In this document: positions 41,753 to 51,419 of the stretch, piece after piece
Numbering within the stretch: position 1 is the first letter of the stretch
How the letters are laid out: every line of letters starts with the position of its first letter
Assembly: GCF_024171895.1 (NCBI RefSeq)
Contig: NZ_JAMTCQ010000008.1
Span: 434,001-498,000, forward strand
From: Prauserella halophila
Lineage (GTDB): Bacteria; Actinomycetota; Actinomycetes; Mycobacteriales; Pseudonocardiaceae
Length of the DNA: 64,000 nt
Direction of reading: 5' to 3'
Program-made: the position numbers and the translations under genes
Notes under the pieces: generated by a model
What the model was told of the DNA's origin: nothing
What the model saw: the letters and a program-made list of their open reading frames with translations, nothing else
The model's database searches: none

Positions 41753-42724
41753 ATGTACGCAGCGACGGTCACCCGCACCGACGGCCCCGCGGCCCTCGAA
41801 GTCACCGACACGGACCCGCCGGCACCCGGCGACGGCCAGGTGCTCATCGACGTCAAGGCGGCCGGCGTCAACTTCCCCGACCTGCTGCTGACGAAGAACA
41901 TGTACCAGGTGAAGCCGGAACCGCCGTTCACGCTCGGCGGTGAACTCGCCGGCATCGTCCGCGAGGCCCCGGCCGATTCGGGCTTCTCCCCCGGCGACCG
42001 CGTCGCCGCCAGCACCACCACCGGCGCCTTCGCCGAACAGGCTCTCGCCTCGGCATCCAGCGTCTTCCCTCTGCCGGATGCGATGAGTTTCGCCGCAGGC
42101 GCCTGTCTGCCGATGAACTACCTGACCATGACATTCGCCCTGCTCAAACGCGGGCAACTGCAGCAGGGCGAGACGGTGCTCGTGCACGGCGCCGCGGGCG
42201 GCATCGGCACCGCCACCATTCAGCTCGCCTCCGCGATGGGCGCACGCGTCATCTCCGTGGTCTCCACGGAGGACAAGGCACGGTTCGTCTCGTCGGTCGG
42301 CTCCCACGAGGTCGTCCTCGCCGACGGGTTCAAGGACTCGGTCGCCGAACTCACCGGCGGCCGCGGTGCCGACCTCGTCGTCGATCCGGTCGGCGGCGAC
42401 CGGTTCACCGACTCCCTCCGCAGCCTCGCCTCGCTGGGCCGGTTGCTGGTCATCGGCTTCACCGCGGGCGACATCCCGACCGTCAAGGTCAACCGGCTGC
42501 TGCTGAACAACATCGACGTCCGCGGGGTCGCGTGGGGTGCCTACGCCCTGGCCGACCCGGCGCGCCTCCGCGCGGAGTGGAACGTGCTGCTGCCGTATCT
42601 CGAGTCGGGAGTGGTCGACCCGCCGATCGCGGCGACCTACCCGCTCTCCCGCGCGGGCGAGGCCGTCGCCCGGCTCGACGACCGCACGGTGCTCGGCAAG
42701 GTCGTGGTCGATCCGGCCGCGTGA
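41753..42724 (+). CDS. NADPH:quinone oxidoreductase-like (zinc-free MDR family)
   Basis: 323 aa medium-chain reductase: GVNFPDLLLTKNMYQ and FTLGGELAGIV in the catalytic half, the NADPH Rossmann motif VLVHGAAGGIGTATIQLA near 143-160, and GADLVVDPVGGDRF. No zinc-ligand cysteines, so a quinone or enoyl reductase rather than an alcohol dehydrogenase. ATG 41753; the 3' end overlaps the converging glycosyltransferase gene by 88 bp. Confidence 0.9.
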   Translation: MYAATVTRTDGPAALEVTDTDPPAPGDGQVLIDVKAAGVNFPDLLLTKNMYQVKPEPPFTLGGELAGIVREAPADSGFSPGDRVAASTTTGAFAEQALASASSVFPLPDAMSFAAGACLPMNYLTMTFALLKRGQLQQGETVLVHGAAGGIGTATIQLASAMGARVISVVSTEDKARFVSSVGSHEVVLADGFKDSVAELTGGRGADLVVDPVGGDRFTDSLRSLASLGRLLVIGFTAGDIPTVKVNRLLLNNIDVRGVAWGAYALADPARLRAEWNVLLPYLESGVVDPPIAATYPLSRAGEAVARLDDRTVLGKVVVDPAA

Positions 42725-43821
42725 GTTCGCGGCCGGCCGGGGCGTTCGGCCAGGCGGCGGTACAGCTCGCGATGCCGTTCGGCGGTTTCGGACCAGCTGT
42801 ATCGCCGCACCAGCGCCCGCCCGCGCTCGCGGTGACGGTCCGGGTCGGACACGGCGCCGGCAAGCGCGTCGGCGAAACCGTGGGGGTCGCCTGCGAACCG
42901 CACGGCCGAGCCGAACACCTCGCGCAGCACCGGGAGGTCCCTGGCGACCACAGGAACTCCCGCGGCGAGTGCCTCCATCGCCGCGAGTCCGAAGCCCTCC
43001 TTCGTGGACGGAAAACCGAACGCCTCGGCCGCGGCCACGACGAGCGGCAACTCGTCGTGGCCGACCGCCCCGAGCACGACCGGCTCGACGCCGAGATCAG
43101 CGGCGCGGGCGTCGAACCGCGCGCGGTAGCCCCGGTAGTCGAACAGCGTCTCCCCGCCGACGATCACCAGCCGCAGCTCCGGATCCCGGTCACGCAGCAA
43201 CGCGAACGCCTCCAGCAGGTCGACGGTTCCCTTCCGTGGTTCGATACCTCCCACCGCGACGACGTACCGGCCGAGCTCGCCGCGCCACCGGCCCGTGCCG
43301 TCCGTGTCGGCCGCGGCGCGGGCGAACCGGCCGGCGTCGACACCGTTCGGAATCACGGTGGCGTCGATCCCCCACCCGTCGCGTAGTTCTCCCGCGACGG
43401 CTCCGGACACGCACACGTGTGCGAACGGCGCCGAGATCGCGCGTTCGTGGCAGGCCGCCAGTTCGGGGGTGGTGAACCGGTCGATGTGGTGCACCGTGCG
43501 CACGCACTCCCCCACCGCGTTGGCGCTGATGCAGTCCTGAGCGTGCACGATGTCGTACGCGCCGCCGTCGAAGGCCTCGCGCAGCGTGTCGATCGACCGC
43601 AGGATGCGCGGGCCCACTCCTTCGCCCTCGCGGGAGTCGAACGGCACAACCCGCACCGTGACGCGCGGGTCCACGGCACGGAAGAAGCCGGTGTCGCCGT
43701 CGCGTCCGAGGGTCCACACGGTGACGTCCTCCCCCATGTCCACCAACGCCTCGGCGAGCGCCAGCGTGTGGACCACGCCGCCACGCGGTTTCGTGGAATA
43801 GGTCAGCAACGCGATCCTCAC
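42637..43821 (-). CDS. MSMEG_0565-type glycosyltransferase (GT4 family), last gene of the Nit1C-like operon
   Basis: 394 aa GT-B glycosyltransferase. N-terminal acceptor half begins VRIALLTYSTKPRGGVVHTL (GTG start); the donor half has VVAVGGIEPRKGTVDLLEAF and the EX7E element FPSTKEGFGLAAMEALA. The start overlaps the preceding hydrolase stop as GTGA with GGAGGGACATC as ribosome site, so it is translationally coupled. Similar genes are fixed members of the actinobacterial nitrogen-starvation cluster (TIGRFAM name MSMEG_0565 family). The last ~30 residues (Ser/Thr/Arg-rich) are antisense to the neighbouring reductase and look like a run-on tail. Acceptor unknown. Confidence 0.88.
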   Translation of the reverse strand: MRIALLTYSTKPRGGVVHTLALAEALVDMGEDVTVWTLGRDGDTGFFRAVDPRVTVRVVPFDSREGEGVGPRILRSIDTLREAFDGGAYDIVHAQDCISANAVGECVRTVHHIDRFTTPELAACHERAISAPFAHVCVSGAVAGELRDGWGIDATVIPNGVDAGRFARAAADTDGTGRWRGELGRYVVAVGGIEPRKGTVDLLEAFALLRDRDPELRLVIVGGETLFDYRGYRARFDARAADLGVEPVVLGAVGHDELPLVVAAAEAFGFPSTKEGFGLAAMEALAAGVPVVARDLPVLREVFGSAVRFAGDPHGFADALAGAVSDPDRHRERGRALVRRYSWSETAERHRELYRRLAERPGRPRTHAAGSTTTLPSTVRSSSRATASPARESG

Positions 43822-44651
43822 GATGTCCCTCCGTAGGCCTCGGGTTTGCGTTCGCCGAGGTGGTGCAGCACCCGCCGGGCGTTGGCCAGCTCGCCCGCCA
43901 CGTCCACCTCGGCCACGGCGATTCCCGCCTTGCTCCACGTGCGCGCCAGGATGTCCCCACCGGGACCGACGACCTTGGCCTGTCCGAGGAAGCGCATGCC
44001 ACCCAGTGCGCCGGTCTGGTTGGCCGAGGCGAGCACCACCTGGTTCTCGGCAGCACGCGCCTGGTCGTAGAGGTCGAACAGCCGCGCCTGGCGGTCCTGG
44101 GACATGCGGGGCGCGCGGTTGGTGATGCTCGTCGGCCACGCGGACAGGCACGCGATGATCTCGGCCCCGTCGACGGCGAGGCTGCGCGCCGATTCAGGGA
44201 ACGTCTTGTCGTAATCGATCAGCATGCCGATCCTGCCCACCGGCGTGTCGAACGCCGCGAACCCGCCGCCCGCGGCGTAGACGGCGCGCTCACCGGACGG
44301 CTGGTGCACCTTGCGGTGCCTGCCGAGCACGCCGTCGCCGGTGACGGCGAGCGCCGCGTTGTAGCGGTCGTCGCCATCGGCTTCGCAGTAACCGACGGCG
44401 ACGACCATGTCCCCCGCCAGCGACCCGATCCGGACCAGGTGCGGATCATCCGGCGACAGCGCGGGAGGCGGATCGGCGGCATCCGGATCGCGCAGGTCCG
44501 ACAGGTATCCACCGACAGCGGCGTCCGGCAGCACGAGCAGCTGCGCGCCGGACGCGCGGGCGTGCTCGATGAGCGTGGCGATGCGGTCGAGGTCGAACTC
44601 GAGATCGCGGCCGAAGTGGGCGGCGACCGCGGCGATGCCGGTCAGAGCCAT
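43818..44651 (-). CDS. nitrilase-superfamily paralogue with degenerate catalytic triad (probable pseudoenzyme)
   Basis: 277 aa, collinear with the intact nitrilase just upstream (shared DGVLGRHRKVHQP, FAAFDTPVGRIGM, SARxLAxDGAEI, CLSAWP). The Glu-Lys-Cys triad is broken: LPDAAVGG has Asp43 for Glu, Lys114 is kept, and LIDYDKTFPE has Asp146 (codon GAT) for the nucleophilic Cys. The fold and assembly surfaces appear kept, so a scaffold, regulatory partner or altered chemistry is more likely than thioester catalysis (inference). ATG 44651 is seven bases after the upstream stop. No frameshift, and the reading frame is clean. Confidence 0.88.
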   Translation of the reverse strand: MALTGIAAVAAHFGRDLEFDLDRIATLIEHARASGAQLLVLPDAAVGGYLSDLRDPDAADPPPALSPDDPHLVRIGSLAGDMVVAVGYCEADGDDRYNAALAVTGDGVLGRHRKVHQPSGERAVYAAGGGFAAFDTPVGRIGMLIDYDKTFPESARSLAVDGAEIIACLSAWPTSITNRAPRMSQDRQARLFDLYDQARAAENQVVLASANQTGALGGMRFLGQAKVVGPGGDILARTWSKAGIAVAEVDVAGELANARRVLHHLGERKPEAYGGTS

Positions 44652-44658
44652 GCGGCGA

Positions 44659-45498
44659 TCATCCCGCAGGCACCGCGGCCGGAGCGTACGCCTCGGGCCT
44701 ACGATCCCGGAGGTGCGCCATCGACCGGCGTGCGCTCGCCAGCGCCGTGGGCACCTCGAAGTCGGCGACCGCCAGCCCGTCGCGCACGCCCGTGTCCGCG
44801 GCCACCTCGCCGCCCGGGTCGACGATCTTCGCGCTCGCGACGAACCGCAGGTCGCCGAATGTGCCCGACTGGTTGGCCGATACCCACACGATCTGGTTCT
44901 CCAGCGCCCGCGCTCGGTCGAACAGGTCGAACCGGCGTTTCCACCGGTCCTGCGCGAGGTCGGCCGCCGCGTGGGTCCGGCTGCCGGGCCACGCGGACAG
45001 GCACACTCCGATCTCCGCACCGTCGAGCGCCAGCGCACGCGCCGATTCGGGGAAGGCTTTGTCGTAGCAGATCATCATGCCGATCCTGCCGACCGGAGTG
45101 TCGAAGGCGGCGAATCCGTTCCCGGCGCGATACGTGGCGTCCTCCGACAGTGGCTGGTGCACCTTCCGGTGCCGGCCCAGCACCCCGTCACCCGAGACGC
45201 ACACGGCGCTGTTGTAGAGGACTCCGCCGTCGGATTCGCAGTACCCGGCCGTGACCACCAGCTCGCCGGCGAGCCGGGCGAGCCGGCGAACCTCCGGCCC
45301 GTCGGCGTCCAGTGCCGGTGGACCGTCGGCACCGCCGTCGAGGTTCGCCAGATACCCGCCCAGACAGGCCTCGGGCAGCGCGAGGAGCCCTGCACCGTCG
45401 GCGCGCGCACGGTCGATCAGTGCAGCGATGCGCGTGAAGTCCTCGTCGAGGTCCCGGCCGAACGGGGCCGCCGCCGCCGCGATACGCACTCCGGTCAT
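44659..45498 (-). CDS. carbon-nitrogen hydrolase (nitrilase superfamily), Nit1C nitrilase-like
   Basis: 279 aa nitrilase-fold enzyme with intact triad: Glu43 (LPEACLGG), Lys112 (GRHRKVHQP) and Cys144 (MMICYDKAFPE). It should hydrolyse a nitrile or amide through a Cys-thioester. Members of this position in Nit1 clusters are the presumed nitrilase. ATG 45498 overlaps the stop of the GNAT/AIR gene as ATGA. Sits directly upstream of its degenerate duplicate. Substrate not determinable from sequence; amidase activity is an alternative. Confidence 0.9.
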   Translation of the reverse strand: MTGVRIAAAAAPFGRDLDEDFTRIAALIDRARADGAGLLALPEACLGGYLANLDGGADGPPALDADGPEVRRLARLAGELVVTAGYCESDGGVLYNSAVCVSGDGVLGRHRKVHQPLSEDATYRAGNGFAAFDTPVGRIGMMICYDKAFPESARALALDGAEIGVCLSAWPGSRTHAAADLAQDRWKRRFDLFDRARALENQIVWVSANQSGTFGDLRFVASAKIVDPGGEVAADTGVRDGLAVADFEVPTALASARRSMAHLRDRRPEAYAPAAVPAG

Positions 45499-46889
45499 GT
45501 CGCGGTCCCCAGACCGGTCACCGCCGTGTCGAGCACGGGGATCTCCTCTCCGTCCGGCCACCGCAGCCGGACTCCACCTTCCACGGTCAGTTCTCCGCAT
45601 TCGGCCGACACCGCCGGCCCGGCGGGTGGTTCCTGGCCACCCACGGTGAGCATTGCGAACCCCGGGAAACACGTCAGCCAGTCGCCCGCCGTCGCACCCG
45701 CGGGCCGCGGCACGGCCGCGACGTCCAACACTGCGCCGCAACCGCTGGCCTCGGCCAGCATGCCGAGAGTGCCGGCGATTCCCGCCATGGACACGTCCTT
45801 GGCCGCCTGCGGGCGCGCCGCCGCGACCGATTCCTGCATCACACGCAACTCGGTCGTCCGACGGGTGGACGTCGAGTCCCACTGGGCGCCGGTGTAGCCG
45901 GGGCGCCACGAGCCACCGAGATCGGCGGTCAGCCGCAGCCGCTGGCCGGGGCGGCCACCTCCTCCCGGAACCGGATCGGGCGTGCGCCCCAACGCGGTCA
46001 CCACCAACGACGCCGGCACACTCAACTGCGTATGCCCGCCGAGCACCGGAACGTCCCACGCCCGACTGGCCGCTCGCAGTCCGGACAGCACTCGCGACGC
46101 GAACGACGCATCCCGCGCGCCCAGCGCATCGAGCAGGCCGACCGGGTTCGCACCCATCGCGGCCAGATCGTTGACGTTCACCAGCACCGAGCACCAGCCT
46201 GCCCACTCCGGGTCGCGCTCGACCATGGAGGGCAGGATCGCGTCGCAGGCGGCGACGGTGTCGCCGCCCGGCACCGGCACGCCGTCGTCGCCGACGAACC
46301 CGGGAACGCCGGTCATACCGTGCAGCAGCGGTCCGAGGGCGGTCTTGGTCGACCGTGCCAGCGCGGCCACCCGGCCGATCGGATACCGCATCAGCACGTG
46401 CGACCTGCCGGCCACATCCACGTCCCGGACACGCTGCCAGCCGAGGCGCGCGAACATCGCCTCGTTGGCCGGCTGCACCTTCGCCTCGAACCGCAGCACC
46501 CCGGCATTCTCCGCATACGCCTGCGCCGCCCTGACCAGCGCCGCACCGACGCGGGTAGCCGCGCGGCGGTGCTGCGGGTCCACCACGAGACGCCCGCCGT
46601 CCCACCAGCCGACGTCCGTGCCGCCGGTGGCCGGATGTAGCCGCACGCCGCCGACCACGGCTCCGCCCGGGTCGCGGGCGACGAGTACGACGGTGCGCGG
46701 GTCACCGTCGTGGACGTCCGTGTCGTCGGAGTCGAAGAGCCGTTGCTCGTCGACGAAGACCGCACGCCGCAACGCCCGGTACGCACCGAGTGTGGCGGCA
46801 TCGTCGGCGGGCTCGATCCGGAAGCGCGGCTGCCGCGCCACGCTGACCGGGTCGCCGAGACCCGCCAGCACGTCGGGATACATACTCAC
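45495..46889 (-). CDS. MSMEG_0567-type fusion: GNAT acetyltransferase + AIR-synthase-like domain
   Basis: 464 aa. Residues about 15-165 are a GNAT fold (RIEPADDAATLGAYRALRRAVFVDEQ, GGRLVVDPQHRRAATRVGAALVR with the acetyl-CoA loop, RFEAKVQPANEAMFARLGW). Residues about 180-464 resemble PurM/AIR synthase (VNVNDLAAMGANPVGLLDAL, VLGGHTQLSVPASLVVTALG, AAKDVSMAGIAGTLGML), an ATP-binding fold. In cyanobacteria these are two genes (Sll0786, Sll0787); in mycobacteria one. GTG 46889 overlaps the radical SAM stop as GTGA; ATG 46883 is the alternative. Confidence 0.88.
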   Translation of the reverse strand: MSMYPDVLAGLGDPVSVARQPRFRIEPADDAATLGAYRALRRAVFVDEQRLFDSDDTDVHDGDPRTVVLVARDPGGAVVGGVRLHPATGGTDVGWWDGGRLVVDPQHRRAATRVGAALVRAAQAYAENAGVLRFEAKVQPANEAMFARLGWQRVRDVDVAGRSHVLMRYPIGRVAALARSTKTALGPLLHGMTGVPGFVGDDGVPVPGGDTVAACDAILPSMVERDPEWAGWCSVLVNVNDLAAMGANPVGLLDALGARDASFASRVLSGLRAASRAWDVPVLGGHTQLSVPASLVVTALGRTPDPVPGGGGRPGQRLRLTADLGGSWRPGYTGAQWDSTSTRRTTELRVMQESVAAARPQAAKDVSMAGIAGTLGMLAEASGCGAVLDVAAVPRPAGATAGDWLTCFPGFAMLTVGGQEPPAGPAVSAECGELTVEGGVRLRWPDGEEIPVLDTAVTGLGTAT

Positions 46890-47959
46890 GCTCCTGCCGC
46901 GCTCAACGCGCCACAGGCGCCGCACGCGGCGCACCCGGCCTGCTGATCGGCCCCGGTCATGCCCGCCGCACGCAGCAGTGCGGCGACGCGTTCGGTGACG
47001 TCACGGACGAGCGAGGCGGGCGGCGGCTGCACACCGTCGGCACGCGCCAAGGTGCCCGCCATCGGACGCATCGGGACGACGAACGGGTAGACGCCGTGCT
47101 CGATGAGCTCGCCGGCGCCCGCCACCAGCTCACCGGGATCCTCGCCGAGGCCGACGAGCAGATACGTCGACACACGGTTGTGGCCGAACACCCGCACCGA
47201 CTCGTCCCACGCCTCCCAGTACTCGCTCAACGGCACCGTCGACTTGCCCGGCATCCAGCGCTCCCGGACCGCATCGTCGAGCGATTCGACATGGATCCCG
47301 ATCGATGTCGCGCCCGCTTCGCGTAGTTCGGTCAGCGCTGTGAGGTCGCCGGGCGGTTCGATCTGTACCTGGATCGGCAACCCCGGTACCGCCTGGAGTA
47401 CGGCCCGTACACAGCGCACGAGGTGCCGTGCTCCCCTGTCCGGTCCCGTGGTCGTCCCCGTGGTGAGCACCAGCTGCCGCACGCCGTCGAGACGCACGGC
47501 GGCCTCGGCGACCTCCGCGAGCTGTGCGGGTGTCTTCGCCGCGATCGTCGAGTCCGTGCGCAGCGACTCCTCGATGGTGCAGAACCGGCATCGCTGGTCC
47601 TCGTCGTACCGGATGCACGTCTGTACCACTGTGGAGGCCAGCACGTCCCTGCCGTGCAGGAGAGCGATCTTGCGATACGGAATACCATCCTTTGTGGACA
47701 GTTCGTAGAACCTCGGCCTGGCGACGGGTTCCACCGACAGGCCGAGGTCCAGGGTTCCGTCGAAGACCCTGCCGTCGCGCACGACGTACGGACTCTCGGA
47801 GTTCAGCGGAACGGTCGCGGCGGCACCGTCGACCACGAGATGACCGTCGTCACTCGGCCCCGCTCCGTTGCTGCGCCGGACGGGCGTCTCCGTCCGGAGT
47901 CCCTGAACCGCGAGGTCGAACCGTGTCGACACGACCGCGTTCTCAGCATCAGTTGTCAC
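46886..47959 (-). CDS. MSMEG_0568-type radical SAM protein
   Basis: 357 aa. The cluster cysteines are Cys115, Cys124 and Cys127 (TCIRYDEDQRCRFCTIEES), a CX8CX2C spacing, wider than the standard CX3CX2C. A GTTTG-type SAM loop follows (LVLTTGTTTGPDRG), then IQVQIEPPGDL and GIHVESLDD as in biotin-synthase-like barrels. The extreme C-terminus has a second cysteine triad, C343/C346/C349 (GCAACGACGA), possibly an auxiliary cluster. GTG 47959 has GGGAGGTACGTC upstream. Reaction unknown; in Nit1C it is always beside the GNAT/AIR and nitrilase genes. Confidence 0.9.
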   Translation of the reverse strand: MTTDAENAVVSTRFDLAVQGLRTETPVRRSNGAGPSDDGHLVVDGAAATVPLNSESPYVVRDGRVFDGTLDLGLSVEPVARPRFYELSTKDGIPYRKIALLHGRDVLASTVVQTCIRYDEDQRCRFCTIEESLRTDSTIAAKTPAQLAEVAEAAVRLDGVRQLVLTTGTTTGPDRGARHLVRCVRAVLQAVPGLPIQVQIEPPGDLTALTELREAGATSIGIHVESLDDAVRERWMPGKSTVPLSEYWEAWDESVRVFGHNRVSTYLLVGLGEDPGELVAGAGELIEHGVYPFVVPMRPMAGTLARADGVQPPPASLVRDVTERVAALLRAAGMTGADQQAGCAACGACGALSAAGA

Positions 47960-47995
47960 GACGTACCTCCCAACTCCCGATCGCCGTTTCGCGGG

Positions 47996-48508
47996 TCACC
48001 ACATATAGGTCGAATTGATGATCGCGCCCTTGCGCGCGTAGTGGATGAGCGCGTCCTGCACGTCCAGCGGGTGGGTCGGAATCACGCCCTCGATGAGGTC
48101 CTCCTCGCGCAGCCCGTGCAACGACAATCCGAACCGGCAGCAGTACACCTTGCCGCCTTCGGCGATGAACGTCTTGAGTTGCTCGTTGATGTTGTGCTCG
48201 CCGGGGAACGCCGAGTTGCCCGTCGTCGGGAACCCACGCGTGGCCATGCAGTTCATCGAGCCGGTACCGTAGAAGTAGATCGCGGCCTCGAAGCCCTTCC
48301 GCAACGCGCGTGTCGCCTGCAGGATCGCCACGAAGCTCACCGACGACTCGTGCGCGATGCCGTGCACCAGAGTGAAGTAGGACTGGCCGGGTTCGGCCTG
48401 ATAGTCGGGAAACACCTTCGTTCCGCCGTAGATGTTCGAGCCTTCGGGCAGCGACGGGTGCGGGATCTCGTTCAGGCTCTGCTGCTCGGTCTCGGTCAGT
48501 TCGGGCAT
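47996..48508 (-). CDS. MSMEG_0572/Sll0783 family nitrogen starvation response protein
   Basis: 170 aa. Begins MPELTETEQQSLNEIPHPSL and is rich in conserved aromatic and Cys residues: YFTLVHGIAHESSVSFV, YFYGTGSMNCMATRGFP, GGKVYCCRFGLSLHGL and a C-terminal INSTYMW. The alternating layout and the VYCC cysteines recall the DsrE/YchN fold (inference). Sll0783 in Synechocystis is induced by nitrogen starvation and affects PHB accumulation (literature). ATG 48508 has GAAGGAGAACCC upstream. Confidence 0.9.
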   Translation of the reverse strand: MPELTETEQQSLNEIPHPSLPEGSNIYGGTKVFPDYQAEPGQSYFTLVHGIAHESSVSFVAILQATRALRKGFEAAIYFYGTGSMNCMATRGFPTTGNSAFPGEHNINEQLKTFIAEGGKVYCCRFGLSLHGLREEDLIEGVIPTHPLDVQDALIHYARKGAIINSTYMW

Positions 48509-48560
48509 GGGTTCTCCTTCGTCGATATCGGCGGATTTCCTGACTACGGTCCGACGAACG

Positions 48561-49388
48561 TCAGCCGTAGAGCTTGTCGAAGTTCTCGCGGAACGCGAGG
48601 CGTGCGAGTTCGCCGTCGCCCGCGGCACCGCTGAGGGCCGCGAGTTCGGCACCGTGGTCTCCCCACGGCTCGTCGCTGGCGAAAAGCACCCGGTCGGCAC
48701 CGATGCCGCGCCGGGAGATCTCCTCGGCGAGCCAGCGCGGCGCGAATCCGATCGCCCACGACAGGTCGGTGTAGACGTGCTTTCCCTCCTCGATCCAGGA
48801 GAAGAAGCGGGAGCCGACCAGCTTGATATGGCCGCTCATACCCCCGCCGAAGTGCACCAGGTGGATCTTCACGCGGTGGCCGTAGTCGTCGACGAGCGCG
48901 CCGATGTTGTCGATGTCCGAGGCGCCTCCCGGGGAGGTGTGCACGTGTACGACGAGGTCGAGCGTTTCGGCCGTCGCGACGATCTCGTCCAGCAACGGGC
49001 GGCATTCCGGATCCGTGGGATTTCCGCCCAGCAGGAAGCTGAGTTTGAGCGCACGCACCCCGGGCTCGTCGGCGAGCGCGAGCGCGGCGCGGGTACGCTC
49101 CGCGTCGCGCGGCAGCGGGGACACCCACACCGCGGCGCGGATCCGGTCGTCCGACGCGGCCGCCTCGACACAGAGTTCGTTGAACGAGAACGACACCGCC
49201 GGATCGGGCACGCCGTAGTTCGGGATCACCAGCGCCCGTTCCGTGCCCTCGGCGTCCAGGTCGGCGATCAGTTCGGCGATCGTCTCCCGCGCCCGCGAGT
49301 CCGGTTTGACCGCGGGGCCGCCGTAGAACGGGAACGCCGGCATCGAACCGAGGTGCCGGTGCGCATCACGGACGTCGAACCGTGTCAC
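48561..49388 (-). CDS. amidohydrolase family protein (PF04909-type) in the Nit1C-like operon
   Basis: 275 aa TIM-barrel hydrolase. Metal ligands: N-terminal RDAHRHLG (HxH as H-R-H), LVVHVHTSPGG, KIHLVHFGGG and the final Asp in LFASDEPWGDH. ALxAAV-type strand VWVSPLPRD is also family-typical. GTG 49388 has GGGAGGGCACCA upstream; 76 bp separates it from the flavoprotein gene, the largest gap in the operon. It may process an amide or carboxylate made by the cluster (inference). Confidence 0.88.
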   Translation of the reverse strand: MTRFDVRDAHRHLGSMPAFPFYGGPAVKPDSRARETIAELIADLDAEGTERALVIPNYGVPDPAVSFSFNELCVEAAASDDRIRAAVWVSPLPRDAERTRAALALADEPGVRALKLSFLLGGNPTDPECRPLLDEIVATAETLDLVVHVHTSPGGASDIDNIGALVDDYGHRVKIHLVHFGGGMSGHIKLVGSRFFSWIEEGKHVYTDLSWAIGFAPRWLAEEISRRGIGADRVLFASDEPWGDHGAELAALSGAAGDGELARLAFRENFDKLYG

Positions 49389-49464
49389 TGGTGCCCTCCC
49401 ACATCGTTGCTCCGTTCCGCCCGCGTCGCGACGGACGTCGTGTCATCGGAGTCACCGTGGCCGC

Positions 49465-50793
49465 TCATGCGACCGTGTGCGGTGATGTCCGGACGGCGCC
49501 GGCCGGACAGGTGTTCCTGCGAGTGCCTGCGATCCACGGCACGTCGAACCGGGTTCCGGGGGCGGTGTCGGTGATCCGGCGCGCGAGATGTTCCGCGTCG
49601 CGTCCGACCCCGCTGAAGCGGCCCGAACCCCACGTGTGCTGCCACGGCAGGCCCAGGAAGTACAGGCCGGGGCAACCGGTCACCCCACGCTCGTGCGCCG
49701 GGTAACCGCGCCCGTCGAAGACCGGCACCTCGATCCACCGGTGGTCCATGCCGAATCCGGTGGCCCACACCACGGACGTGATGCCGGTATCGTCGAGCGC
49801 GAGCTCCGCCGGCTCGTCACCTGGATCCCACACCGGAACGTAGCGCCGTTCGGCCGGAGCTTCGATCCCGTGCAGTTCCAGGTACGCGTCGATCGAGTCC
49901 TTGATCCCCTCGGACACGGCGTCGGCACCGTCGAGGTTCTCACGCAGGTCCGGGAGGAAACGCACCACGCCGGAGTCCACATCGGACAACCTTCCGTACA
50001 GTCGCATCCCCGCGAGCGCGAACGCCCGCAGGTCGATGTCGCGGCCGCCGTCCCGCCCGGTGACGTAGTGATTGGCCCGGAACCGCACGGCGTCGGCGTC
50101 GGAGAACTCGTCGATCCCCCGGCGGTAGTGGCCCATGTCCTCGAGCCAGTCGACGACGTCCCTGCCGCGGTACCGGCGCGCGACCCTCGGCGCGCCCCCC
50201 ACGGACAGATGCACCGCGCGCCCGGCCAGCTGCAGGTCCTCGGCGATCTGGCACCCGGACTGTCCCGACCCGACCACGAGCACCTCGCCGTCCGGTAGCT
50301 GCCGTGGATTCCGGTATGCCGAGGAGTGCAGCTGGGTGAGCCCGGGAGGAAGCCGCTCGGCGAGCCGCGGGATCAGCGGAACCTGGTACGGACCGGTGGC
50401 CACCACAACCTGATCGGCGGTGAGCTCTCCGTGCGATGTGGACAGCACGAACGTCGTCCCGTCTCGTCGCAGCAGGGTCACGTCGACTCCGGTGACGAGC
50501 GGGCACGGGAAGGAACGTGCGTAGTCCTCTACGTAGGCCGCGACCTCGTCCCGGGCCATGAACCCGTCGGGATCGCCACCCGCGTAGGGAAATCCGGGAA
50601 GGTCGCACTGCCGGTTCGGCGTGACGAGGCAGAACGAGTCCCAGCGACGACTGCGCCACTCGTGTCCCGGGCTCTCCCGTTCCAGCACGATGTGGTCCAC
50701 ACCGTCCCGGGTCAGCCGGTGGCTCATCGACAGCCCCGCCTGCCCTCCGCCGATGATCGCCACCGTCCGGTGCAAGCCATCCACCGTGGTCAT
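49465..50793 (-). CDS. MSMEG_0569-type flavin-dependent oxidoreductase
   Basis: 442 aa, flavin monooxygenase-like: FAD motif [16 protein letters not shown] near residue 13, FAD-contact [22 protein letters not shown] Rossmann motif [17 protein letters not shown] near 167-183 and [10 protein letters not shown] in the C-terminal FAD motif. Comparable to NitH of Nit1C clusters. ATG 50793 overlaps the stop of the small upstream gene as ATGA. Likely N- or C-hydroxylation of the pathway intermediate (inference). Confidence 0.9.
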
Positions 50794-51071
50794 CGTTCGA
50801 ACCTCTCGACAACCACGGTGGAGTCACCGGCAGCGCCCGTCGCGGCCCGGTCGAGTTCCGCCACGGTGGCCCTCGCCCGGCCACACGGGACACCGTGAAT
50901 GGCGGCGACTCGGTCCGAGGCGACACCGAGAGCCGATTTCCCGCGTTCCAGGAAATCGTCGATGCGGTATTCGCTCCCGGGCCGGAGATAGTCCTCGATC
51001 ACGGTGGACGGGGAGTAGAATCGGTGCGAAACGCCGTCCGGCCAGCGCACATGGAAGTACATCTCGGGCAC
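50790..51071 (-). CDS. MSMEG_0570 family nitrogen starvation response protein
   Basis: 93 aa, first gene of the operon. [20 protein letters not shown] and the [24 protein letters not shown] segment are characteristic of the small protein fixed in this cluster. The start is set at GTG 51071 because AGAGGAG lies five bases upstream; GTG 51077 and ATG 51062 are alternatives. Role unknown; translationally coupled to the flavoprotein by ATGA, so perhaps a partner subunit. Confidence 0.85.
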
Positions 51072-51419
51072 GGCCACTCCTCTCGACGGGATGGTTCTGT
51101 CGGTGGGTCGTTCTCGCGGTGGGTCGTTCTCGCGGTGGGTCGTTCTCGCGGCGGAACGGTTCGCCGAGGGACGGACACGGCAGGTGGGTGACGCGACTCG
51201 GTCGCGATACCATGGACACGCCCGCGGCGACGTCTACCCGCGGACCGGCGACCACACTGTCGCGGCGATAGAGTTGCCACGATCCGGACGCCCATGGCGA
51301 CCGAATGTGATGACAACCAGTAGAACCGCTGACGATTTCCGAACGATGCCATCCGGAATGCCCGTGCGTTACCGAAAAGGCACTTTGTTACGAGAAAACG
51401 TCCGATAGTCTCGATGGTG
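51072..51419. other. 348-bp divergent promoter region of the Nit1C-like operon and the 51420 methyltransferase
   Basis: No gene. Besides the 16-bp array (51102-51149) the right end is AT-rich and contains two direct GTTAC-containing repeats (51368-51372 and 51387-51391, 19 bp apart) and a -10-like GATAGT at 51404-51409. Confidence 0.55.
51102..51149. repeat. 16-bp tandem repeat, three copies, in the operon leader
   Basis: Three exact copies of GGTGGGTCGTTCTCGC (51102-51117, 51118-51133, 51134-51149), with a degenerate partial copy before them. They begin 30 bp upstream of the first Nit1C-like gene. Confidence 0.92.

Follow-up and report, generated by a model that had tools for sequence, protein, structure and literature searches.

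The window analysed here is a stretch of 64,000 nucleotides from Prauserella halophila, whose genome spans 5.05 Mb. Positions 42637-51077 of the window harbor the following genes:

42637..43821, minus strand: MSMEG_0565-type glycosyltransferase (TIGR04047, 469 bits, over cut-off)
43818..44651, minus strand: Asp paralogue, 277 amino acids, with Glu121 and the signature Q188/L191/Y195/A201/E267 (PF00795, 119 bits)
44659..45498, minus strand: intact paralogue, an amidase-like C-N hydrolase of 279 amino acids (PF00795, 136 bits)
45495..46868, minus strand: MSMEG_0567-type fusion of GNAT and AIR-synthase-like domains (TIGR04050, 464 bits; TIGR04045, 107 bits; both over cut-off)
46886..47959, minus strand: MSMEG_0568-type radical SAM protein (TIGR04043, 490 bits, over cut-off)
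47996..48508, minus strand: MSMEG_0572/Sll0783-type DsrE-like protein (TIGR04044, 250 bits, over cut-off; start placed at MPELTE)
48561..49388, minus strand: Amidohydrolase-2 family protein (PF04909, 59.5 bits), also found in the cluster of many relatives
49465..50793, minus strand: MSMEG_0569-type flavin-dependent oxidoreductase (FMO; TIGR04046, 632 bits, over cut-off)
50790..51077, minus strand: MSMEG_0570-type small protein, a frame of 95 amino acids (TIGR04042, 100.6 bits, over cut-off, at 50814-51068, that is, G000:C1:484814-485068)

The small MSMEG_0570-type protein has no Pfam match. Nit1C operons comprise radical SAM, GNAT, AIRS, flavoprotein, and other genes, as described in passages of two papers (PMC1199592, PMC11049912). 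With TIGR04043, TIGR04045, TIGR04050, TIGR04044, TIGR04046, TIGR04047, and TIGR04042 all matched over their cut-offs, locus 42637-51077 is the actinobacterial form of the Nit1C (MSMEG_0565-0572, "gpr") cluster.

Two of these genes encode paralogous members of the nitrilase superfamily (CN_hydrolase, PF00795) that are 60% identical over residues 5-274; the next-best relatives of the pair within the host genome reach 33-34%. The intact neighbour has Glu43, Lys112, and Cys144 (E-K-C) in the motifs LPEACLGG, GRHRKVHQ, and MMICYDK. The Asp paralogue harbors Asp43, Lys114, and Asp146 (D-K-D) in LPDAAVGG, GRHRKVHQ, and MLIDYDK, with Asp146 encoded by GAT. The initial annotation had read these changes by eye, and both the frames and a Phmmer alignment to solved amidases bear them out: Asp146 aligns with the Cys and Asp43 with the Glu, at columns that we take to be the catalytic ones. 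The Asp gene is an open frame, as had also been noted. Its start lies 7 bp past the stop codon of the intact neighbour and its stop overlaps the start of the following glycosyltransferase gene by GTGA, so that it is coupled to both neighbours. The fold is preserved as well. The Asp paralogue exceeds the PF00795 cut-off of 23.2 bits by a wide margin (119 bits), and Foldseek aligns it to solved amidases with a probability of 1.00 and a TM score by query of 0.70-0.81 among the 50 rows listed. In the fold models, each made with 42 closely related rows, residues 171-180 of the Asp protein reach a pLDDT of 59; the Cys model scores 89 over this block.

The pair had been designated Nit1C nitrilases, a name that the scores do not support. 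Against the NitC/Nit6803 model (TIGR04048), the Asp copy scores 35.1 bits and its neighbour 37.7 bits at a cut-off of 502.6; neither paralogue is the Nit1C nitrilase NitC, and both are amidase-like. This is a property of the class. The radical SAM gene of the cluster is present in 54 of the 394 Actinomycetes genomes sampled, and a genome-wide search of these 54 returned no NitC over the cut-off, which rules out a NitC located elsewhere in the genome; weaker TIGR04048 matches of 154-266 bits occur in eight. Because none of the 54 holds a NitC over the cut-off, the Nit1C pathway seems to run in Actinomycetes with an amidase-like enzyme substituting for NitC. To our knowledge, no product of this pathway has been identified in actinobacteria.

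Conservation of a second copy with the altered triad in related genera had been suggested as a check, and such a copy is conserved. A scan of one genome per species returned 431 relatives, from which the best 80 by likeness to the query were retained. All 80 of these named loci carry a D-K-D gene with an intact E-K-C gene upstream within ~1.5 kb, which is far beyond chance; at one locus (L046), the E-K-C triad was pieced together from three separate blast fragments. Among the named relatives in the collection, Prauserella aidingensis is the closest, its Asp protein being 94% identical. Within Prauserella, the pair is present in four of seven genomes (the window's own counted) and neither copy is present in the other three. 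At the level of the phylum, a match occurs in 6 of 296 genomes; three of the six, counting the genome of the window, have an Asp copy.

A set of 153 non-redundant Asp copies was assembled from the 80 named loci, class and order samples, and one Rhodococcus plasmid; one Cys-copy row from a Rhodococcus plasmid that passed the score threshold was left out. Asp copies were read in 30 of 32 genomes of the class sample (G500 and G551 left out), and the order sample contributed all of its 63 copies, found in 62 of 397 genomes. Asp146, Lys114, Asp148, Q188, L191, Y195, A201, and E267 are invariant in 153/153 copies, and Glu121 is retained in all but two. Six residues are both invariant in the Asp group and different in the Cys copy, four of them in helix 185-203; at the matching positions, intact copies have mostly Cys, Trp, Arg, Phe, Leu, and Asp. 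In a sample of one genus, where Asp copies were read in 30 of 41 genomes, 29 further loci, some overlapping the set of 153, read D-K-E-D with the same helix residues.

Of the catalytic Glu-Lys-Cys triad, only the Lys remains, as both Cys and Glu are gone in 153/153 copies. Asp146 is invariant. Asp43 is not essential: position 43 is Asp in 144 copies, Gly in seven, Gln in one, and His in one, and never Glu. Orthologues with Cys at position 146 had been named as the observation that would point to an isolated mutation or a sequencing error, and not one was found among the 153 copies. With the same Asp in 80/80 loci and 153/153 copies, such an error was rejected. A migrated Cys nucleophile was rejected as well because every Cys column of the Asp group varies; the best one is filled in 151/153 copies, and the window's copy has Ala there. 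An internal TGA (selenocysteine) in some orthologues was likewise considered and dismissed, with no stop within the aligned stretch of 55 Asp copies (ten flagged with one TGA).

A quick-method tree built on 130 selected rows places the Asp copies on one side of a branch with an SH-aLRT of 99; therefore, a single Cys-to-Asp step suffices. Weakly supported, five E-K-C rows from other classes attach to the Asp group, so that the adjacent intact gene is only a candidate ancestor and no E-K-C group stands out as the sister. A recent tandem duplication does not agree with this placement in one old group, nor with the presence of another gene between the two copies in 21 of 29 class-sample clusters.

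The proposal that selection keeps the gene fared better. Under a one-ratio GY+F3X4 model with 29 taxa, the Asp copy has an omega of 0.073 and the Cys copy one of 0.076. Cruder pairwise counts on 3054 less saturated pairs yield medians of 0.21 and 0.24 and maxima of 0.42 and 0.62, respectively. By the pairwise method, the omega of the Asp copy within the genus is 0.106-0.146 and exceeds that of the Cys copy in two of six pairs. A dN/dS near 1, which would have spoken against selection, is thus far from the values obtained. Any contrast between the copies drawn from the best 80 of the 431 relatives is biased toward query-like loci, a bias from which the class sample is free; there, 335 of 406 genome pairs show higher identity for the Asp copy than for the Cys copy. 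Entropies from the same sample are lower in the Asp copy than in the Cys copy around the Lys (0.43 versus 0.49), around the nucleophile (0.30 versus 0.36), and in the helix after the nucleophile (0.47 versus 0.61). The surroundings of position 43 are the only motif with a higher value (0.47 versus 0.30).

The Asp gene is thus an old, fixed paralogue under purifying selection and not a decaying gene. With omega far below 1 and the triad incomplete in 153/153 copies, it has the two marks of a pseudoenzyme, a lost catalytic motif and a gene under selection. Decay into a pseudogene, an isolated mutation, or a sequencing error would account only for the loss of two triad residues, and is practically untenable against a single tree group with the same Asp in every copy read, an omega of 0.07, and an aligned stretch free of stops in 55 Asp copies. 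Given one old step and no reversion seen, the Asp protein, which many actinobacteria encode beside a normal-looking relative, looks preserved and put to a new use that does without the cysteine.

By score, a Cys-like second match accompanies the Asp copy in 32/32 genomes of the class sample (E-K-C was read in 30 of these), in 62/62 of the order sample, and in 40/41 of one genus, the exception being a genome that is 70% complete. Conversely, 16 of the 48 class-sample genomes having a match contain the Cys copy alone, which therefore does not need the Asp copy. The dependence is therefore one-sided.

The second companion is the flavoprotein MSMEG_0569. Within the class sample, the Asp copy is found in 32 genomes, TIGR04046 over the cut-off in 33, and both in 31. 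G320 is the sole Asp genome without TIGR04046 and has a different, 496-residue FAD-binding protein between its Cys and Asp copies. This protein (L152:8360-9850) matches PF01494 and other families, and MSMEG_0569 was not found in G320. Two genomes (G333 and G506) have the flavoprotein and no Asp copy. Neither is present in 20 class-sample genomes, 14 of which keep a Cys-type copy; the remaining six have a more distant radical SAM gene and no match. MSMEG_0570 is present in 17 of the 54 genomes, and all 17 have the flavoprotein. Elsewhere in the phylum, two genomes from other classes have a cluster in which an E-K-C enzyme is accompanied by GNAT-AIRS and the flavoprotein with no Asp copy nearby, in one case on a short contig.

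Fisher p values for the co-occurrence of the Asp copy and the flavoprotein are 1.4e-11 (54 genomes) and 3.5e-9 (the 48 with a match), both inflated by kinship because the Asp-copy label needs only three changes on the radical-SAM tree, where the 14 genomes form one clade. The co-occurrence was therefore rejected as strong proof, with one clear co-loss set against two exceptions (G333 and G506). The Asp copy mostly travels with MSMEG_0569, in a link that is suggestive and rests on few independent losses.

Gene order was counted for the probed genes in the 29 class-sample clusters whose retrieved sequence includes both copies. The gene immediately preceding the Asp gene is the Cys gene in eight clusters, the flavoprotein in 16, another FAD protein in one, and GNAT-AIRS in four; the glycosyltransferase adjoins the Asp gene in 28. 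The tight coupling observed in the window is not universal, as ~4 to 6 kb separate the two copies in the genus to which G080 belongs.

Several further occurrences were recorded. G727 has two Asp copies on contigs C270 and C47 (L213 and L214), each within ~2 kb of a Cys-like match. Four Rhodococcus records carry the Asp copy on a plasmid, including pN9T4-1 of Rhodococcus qingshengii N9T-4 (L197), where an IS256 transposase gene is found ~1.2 kb from the cluster, which has both copies; on this basis, the cluster may move. Three of these plasmids have the Asp copy annotated as a C-N hydrolase, and the fourth has no annotation. Family f121 (L258-L261, from G696, G703, G689, and G679) contains another relative of the Cys copy that has degenerated independently and is 61-67% identical to the Cys copy of the window. 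It has lost the Lys, has a short deletion at or beside the second Glu, and harbors Cys, Ser, or Gly at the nucleophile position; save for a radical-SAM piece in L265, no other cluster genes were found around it.

GlnR boxes follow the pattern GTNAC-N6-GNAAC. A scan of the window for this motif returned 35 sites, against 38.6 expected by chance. One site upstream of the operon (51368-51383) has the GlnR half-site pattern with one mismatch on both strands, within a site count that is at the level of chance.

Taken together, the Asp gene is proposed to be an old, selected paralogue that has dispensed with covalent Cys chemistry, has kept its pocket, and serves as a putative non-covalent binding partner, a reading in which we place about even confidence. 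The chemistry of the superfamily is a covalent hydrolysis that requires a Cys and a Glu base. A single ancestral step would have placed Asp at the nucleophile Cys, with the general-base Glu lost too. Because both residues are missing, this hydrolysis presumably cannot run in the Asp protein, which would be unable to form a thioimidate or thioester intermediate. Asp146 may instead form a pair with Lys114, and the charged pocket around them would still bind a partner or a metabolite of the pathway. The Asp protein would then be a non-covalent subunit, most likely working with the intact hydrolase, for which it may bind a ligand or act as an activator, and/or it may escort between the intact hydrolase and the flavoprotein MSMEG_0569. 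The pocket is read as being used non-covalently on the grounds that its motifs are about as conserved as those of the intact copy, with Lys114 and Asp146 absolute in the copies read. A changed oligomer partner would also fit, because four of the six private invariant residues lie on helix 185-203, which we take to be part of the dimer surface in the superfamily.

A pocket about as conserved as that of the intact enzyme would fit a new catalyst equally well. The Asp copy may be a neofunctionalised enzyme in which Asp146, together with Lys114 and Glu121, acts as a nucleophile or acid/base; its substrate would be an intermediate of the pathway, perhaps what the flavoprotein produces. We consider such an enzyme possible but unlikely. 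The invariance of Asp146, Lys114, and Asp148 and the near-invariance of Glu121 across 153 copies are consistent with it, as are the new invariant helix residues Q188, L191, Y195, and A201 and the absence of Glu from position 43 in all 153, as though excluded. The usual company of a flavin-dependent oxidoreductase, once swapped for another FAD protein, points the same way. However, position 43 is Gly, Gln, or His in some copies, leaving no conserved usual base, and an Asp-nucleophile enzyme of the nitrilase fold was not found in the open-licence literature searched. Asp nucleophiles are employed in the alpha/beta-hydrolase fold, as in the haloalkane dehalogenases, which offers a parallel; we know of no nitrilase-fold enzyme with one. 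In its most specific form, the Asp group would be a Cys-independent catalytic branch of the nitrilase fold, with Asp146 held by Lys114 and Glu121 and handling a product of MSMEG_0569 in a nitrogen-starvation pathway where an amidase-type enzyme and the Asp paralogue substitute for the NitC nitrilase, a proposal that we regard as rather doubtful.

Alternatively, the Asp protein may be a purely structural or allosteric subunit of a hetero-oligomer that completes the dimer surface of the intact copy, its pocket being a passive relic. The same four of six private invariant residues on helix 185-203, presumably at the dimer surface, argue for such a role, and the plant nitrilases NIT4A and NIT4B2 are described as a heteromeric complex of paralogues in a passage of PMC5154151. 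However, a relic pocket should drift, whereas Lys114 and Asp146 are fixed in all 153 copies and Glu121 changes in only two. Furthermore, the Cys copy is found alone in 16 of 48 class-sample genomes, and we consider this alternative quite improbable. Spirals are a property of branch-1 nitrilases, and the hetero-spirals that had been envisaged for the pair are therefore unlikely. A paralogue pair with one chemically changed site and a usual flavoprotein companion affords a concrete handle on the Nit1C pathway.

No description of the Asp paralogue was found in the open-licence literature searched on Nit1C, MSMEG_0565-0572, the sll0783 cluster, nitrilase pseudoenzymes and inactive paralogues, heteromeric nitrilases, or nitrilase dimer surfaces. 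NitC/Nit6803 (TIGR04048) resides in an operon of the same kind, but the Asp copy scores 35 bits against its cut-off of 502.6. NIT4A and NIT4B2 keep the EKC triad. They belong to branch 1 and are described as acting as a heteromer of paralogous nitrilases (PMC5154151), whereas a heteromer of the Asp and Cys copies is putative.

In M. smegmatis, passages of PMC6039565 describe MSMEG_0565-0572 as an eight-gene operon that is GlnR-dependent and strongly induced by nitrogen starvation, and the deletion of which lowers peroxide resistance. The gene order in the genus of G080 matches the MSMEG_0565-0572 numbering and suggests that the Asp copy corresponds to MSMEG_0566 and the Cys copy to MSMEG_0571. 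Under nitrogen limitation, expression ratios of 2.96 for MSMEG_0566 and 4.06 for MSMEG_0571 are given in a table of PMC4617892. A list in PMC4222082 gives MSMEG_0566 a value of 8.94; the portions of both papers name it "aliphatic amidase" among the nitrogen-induced genes. If MSMEG_0566 is the Asp copy, this aliphatic amidase cannot be an ordinary Cys-dependent amidase. The lost triad goes unmentioned in the passages of the M. smegmatis gpr papers (PMC6039565). The same source, in part, proposes a selenoprotein via readthrough of the MSMEG_0571 stop, which is doubtful because relatives encode the Cys copy, MSMEG_0570, and the flavoprotein separately.

Pseudoenzymes in general have a conserved fold without a conserved catalytic motif (PMC10211241, in part), a feature shared by the Asp copy. 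Unlike them, the Asp copy has a changed position that is itself invariant and chemically new, and for this reason it may not have lost all activity.

The closest structural counterparts are the solved amidase-type hydrolases 6ypa (Pyrococcus horikoshii amidase), 1j31 (PH0642), 3ivz (a hyperthermophilic nitrilase), and 5h8i-5h8l (Medicago N-carbamoylputrescine amidohydrolase), all of which are covalent Cys hydrolases. The Asp copy shares with them the fold, PF00795, and the Lys and second Glu in place. In contrast, it harbors Asp where they have the Cys and Asp, Gly, Gln, or His where they have the Glu. If Asp146 is catalytic, this substitution would represent new chemistry for a large and well-studied fold.
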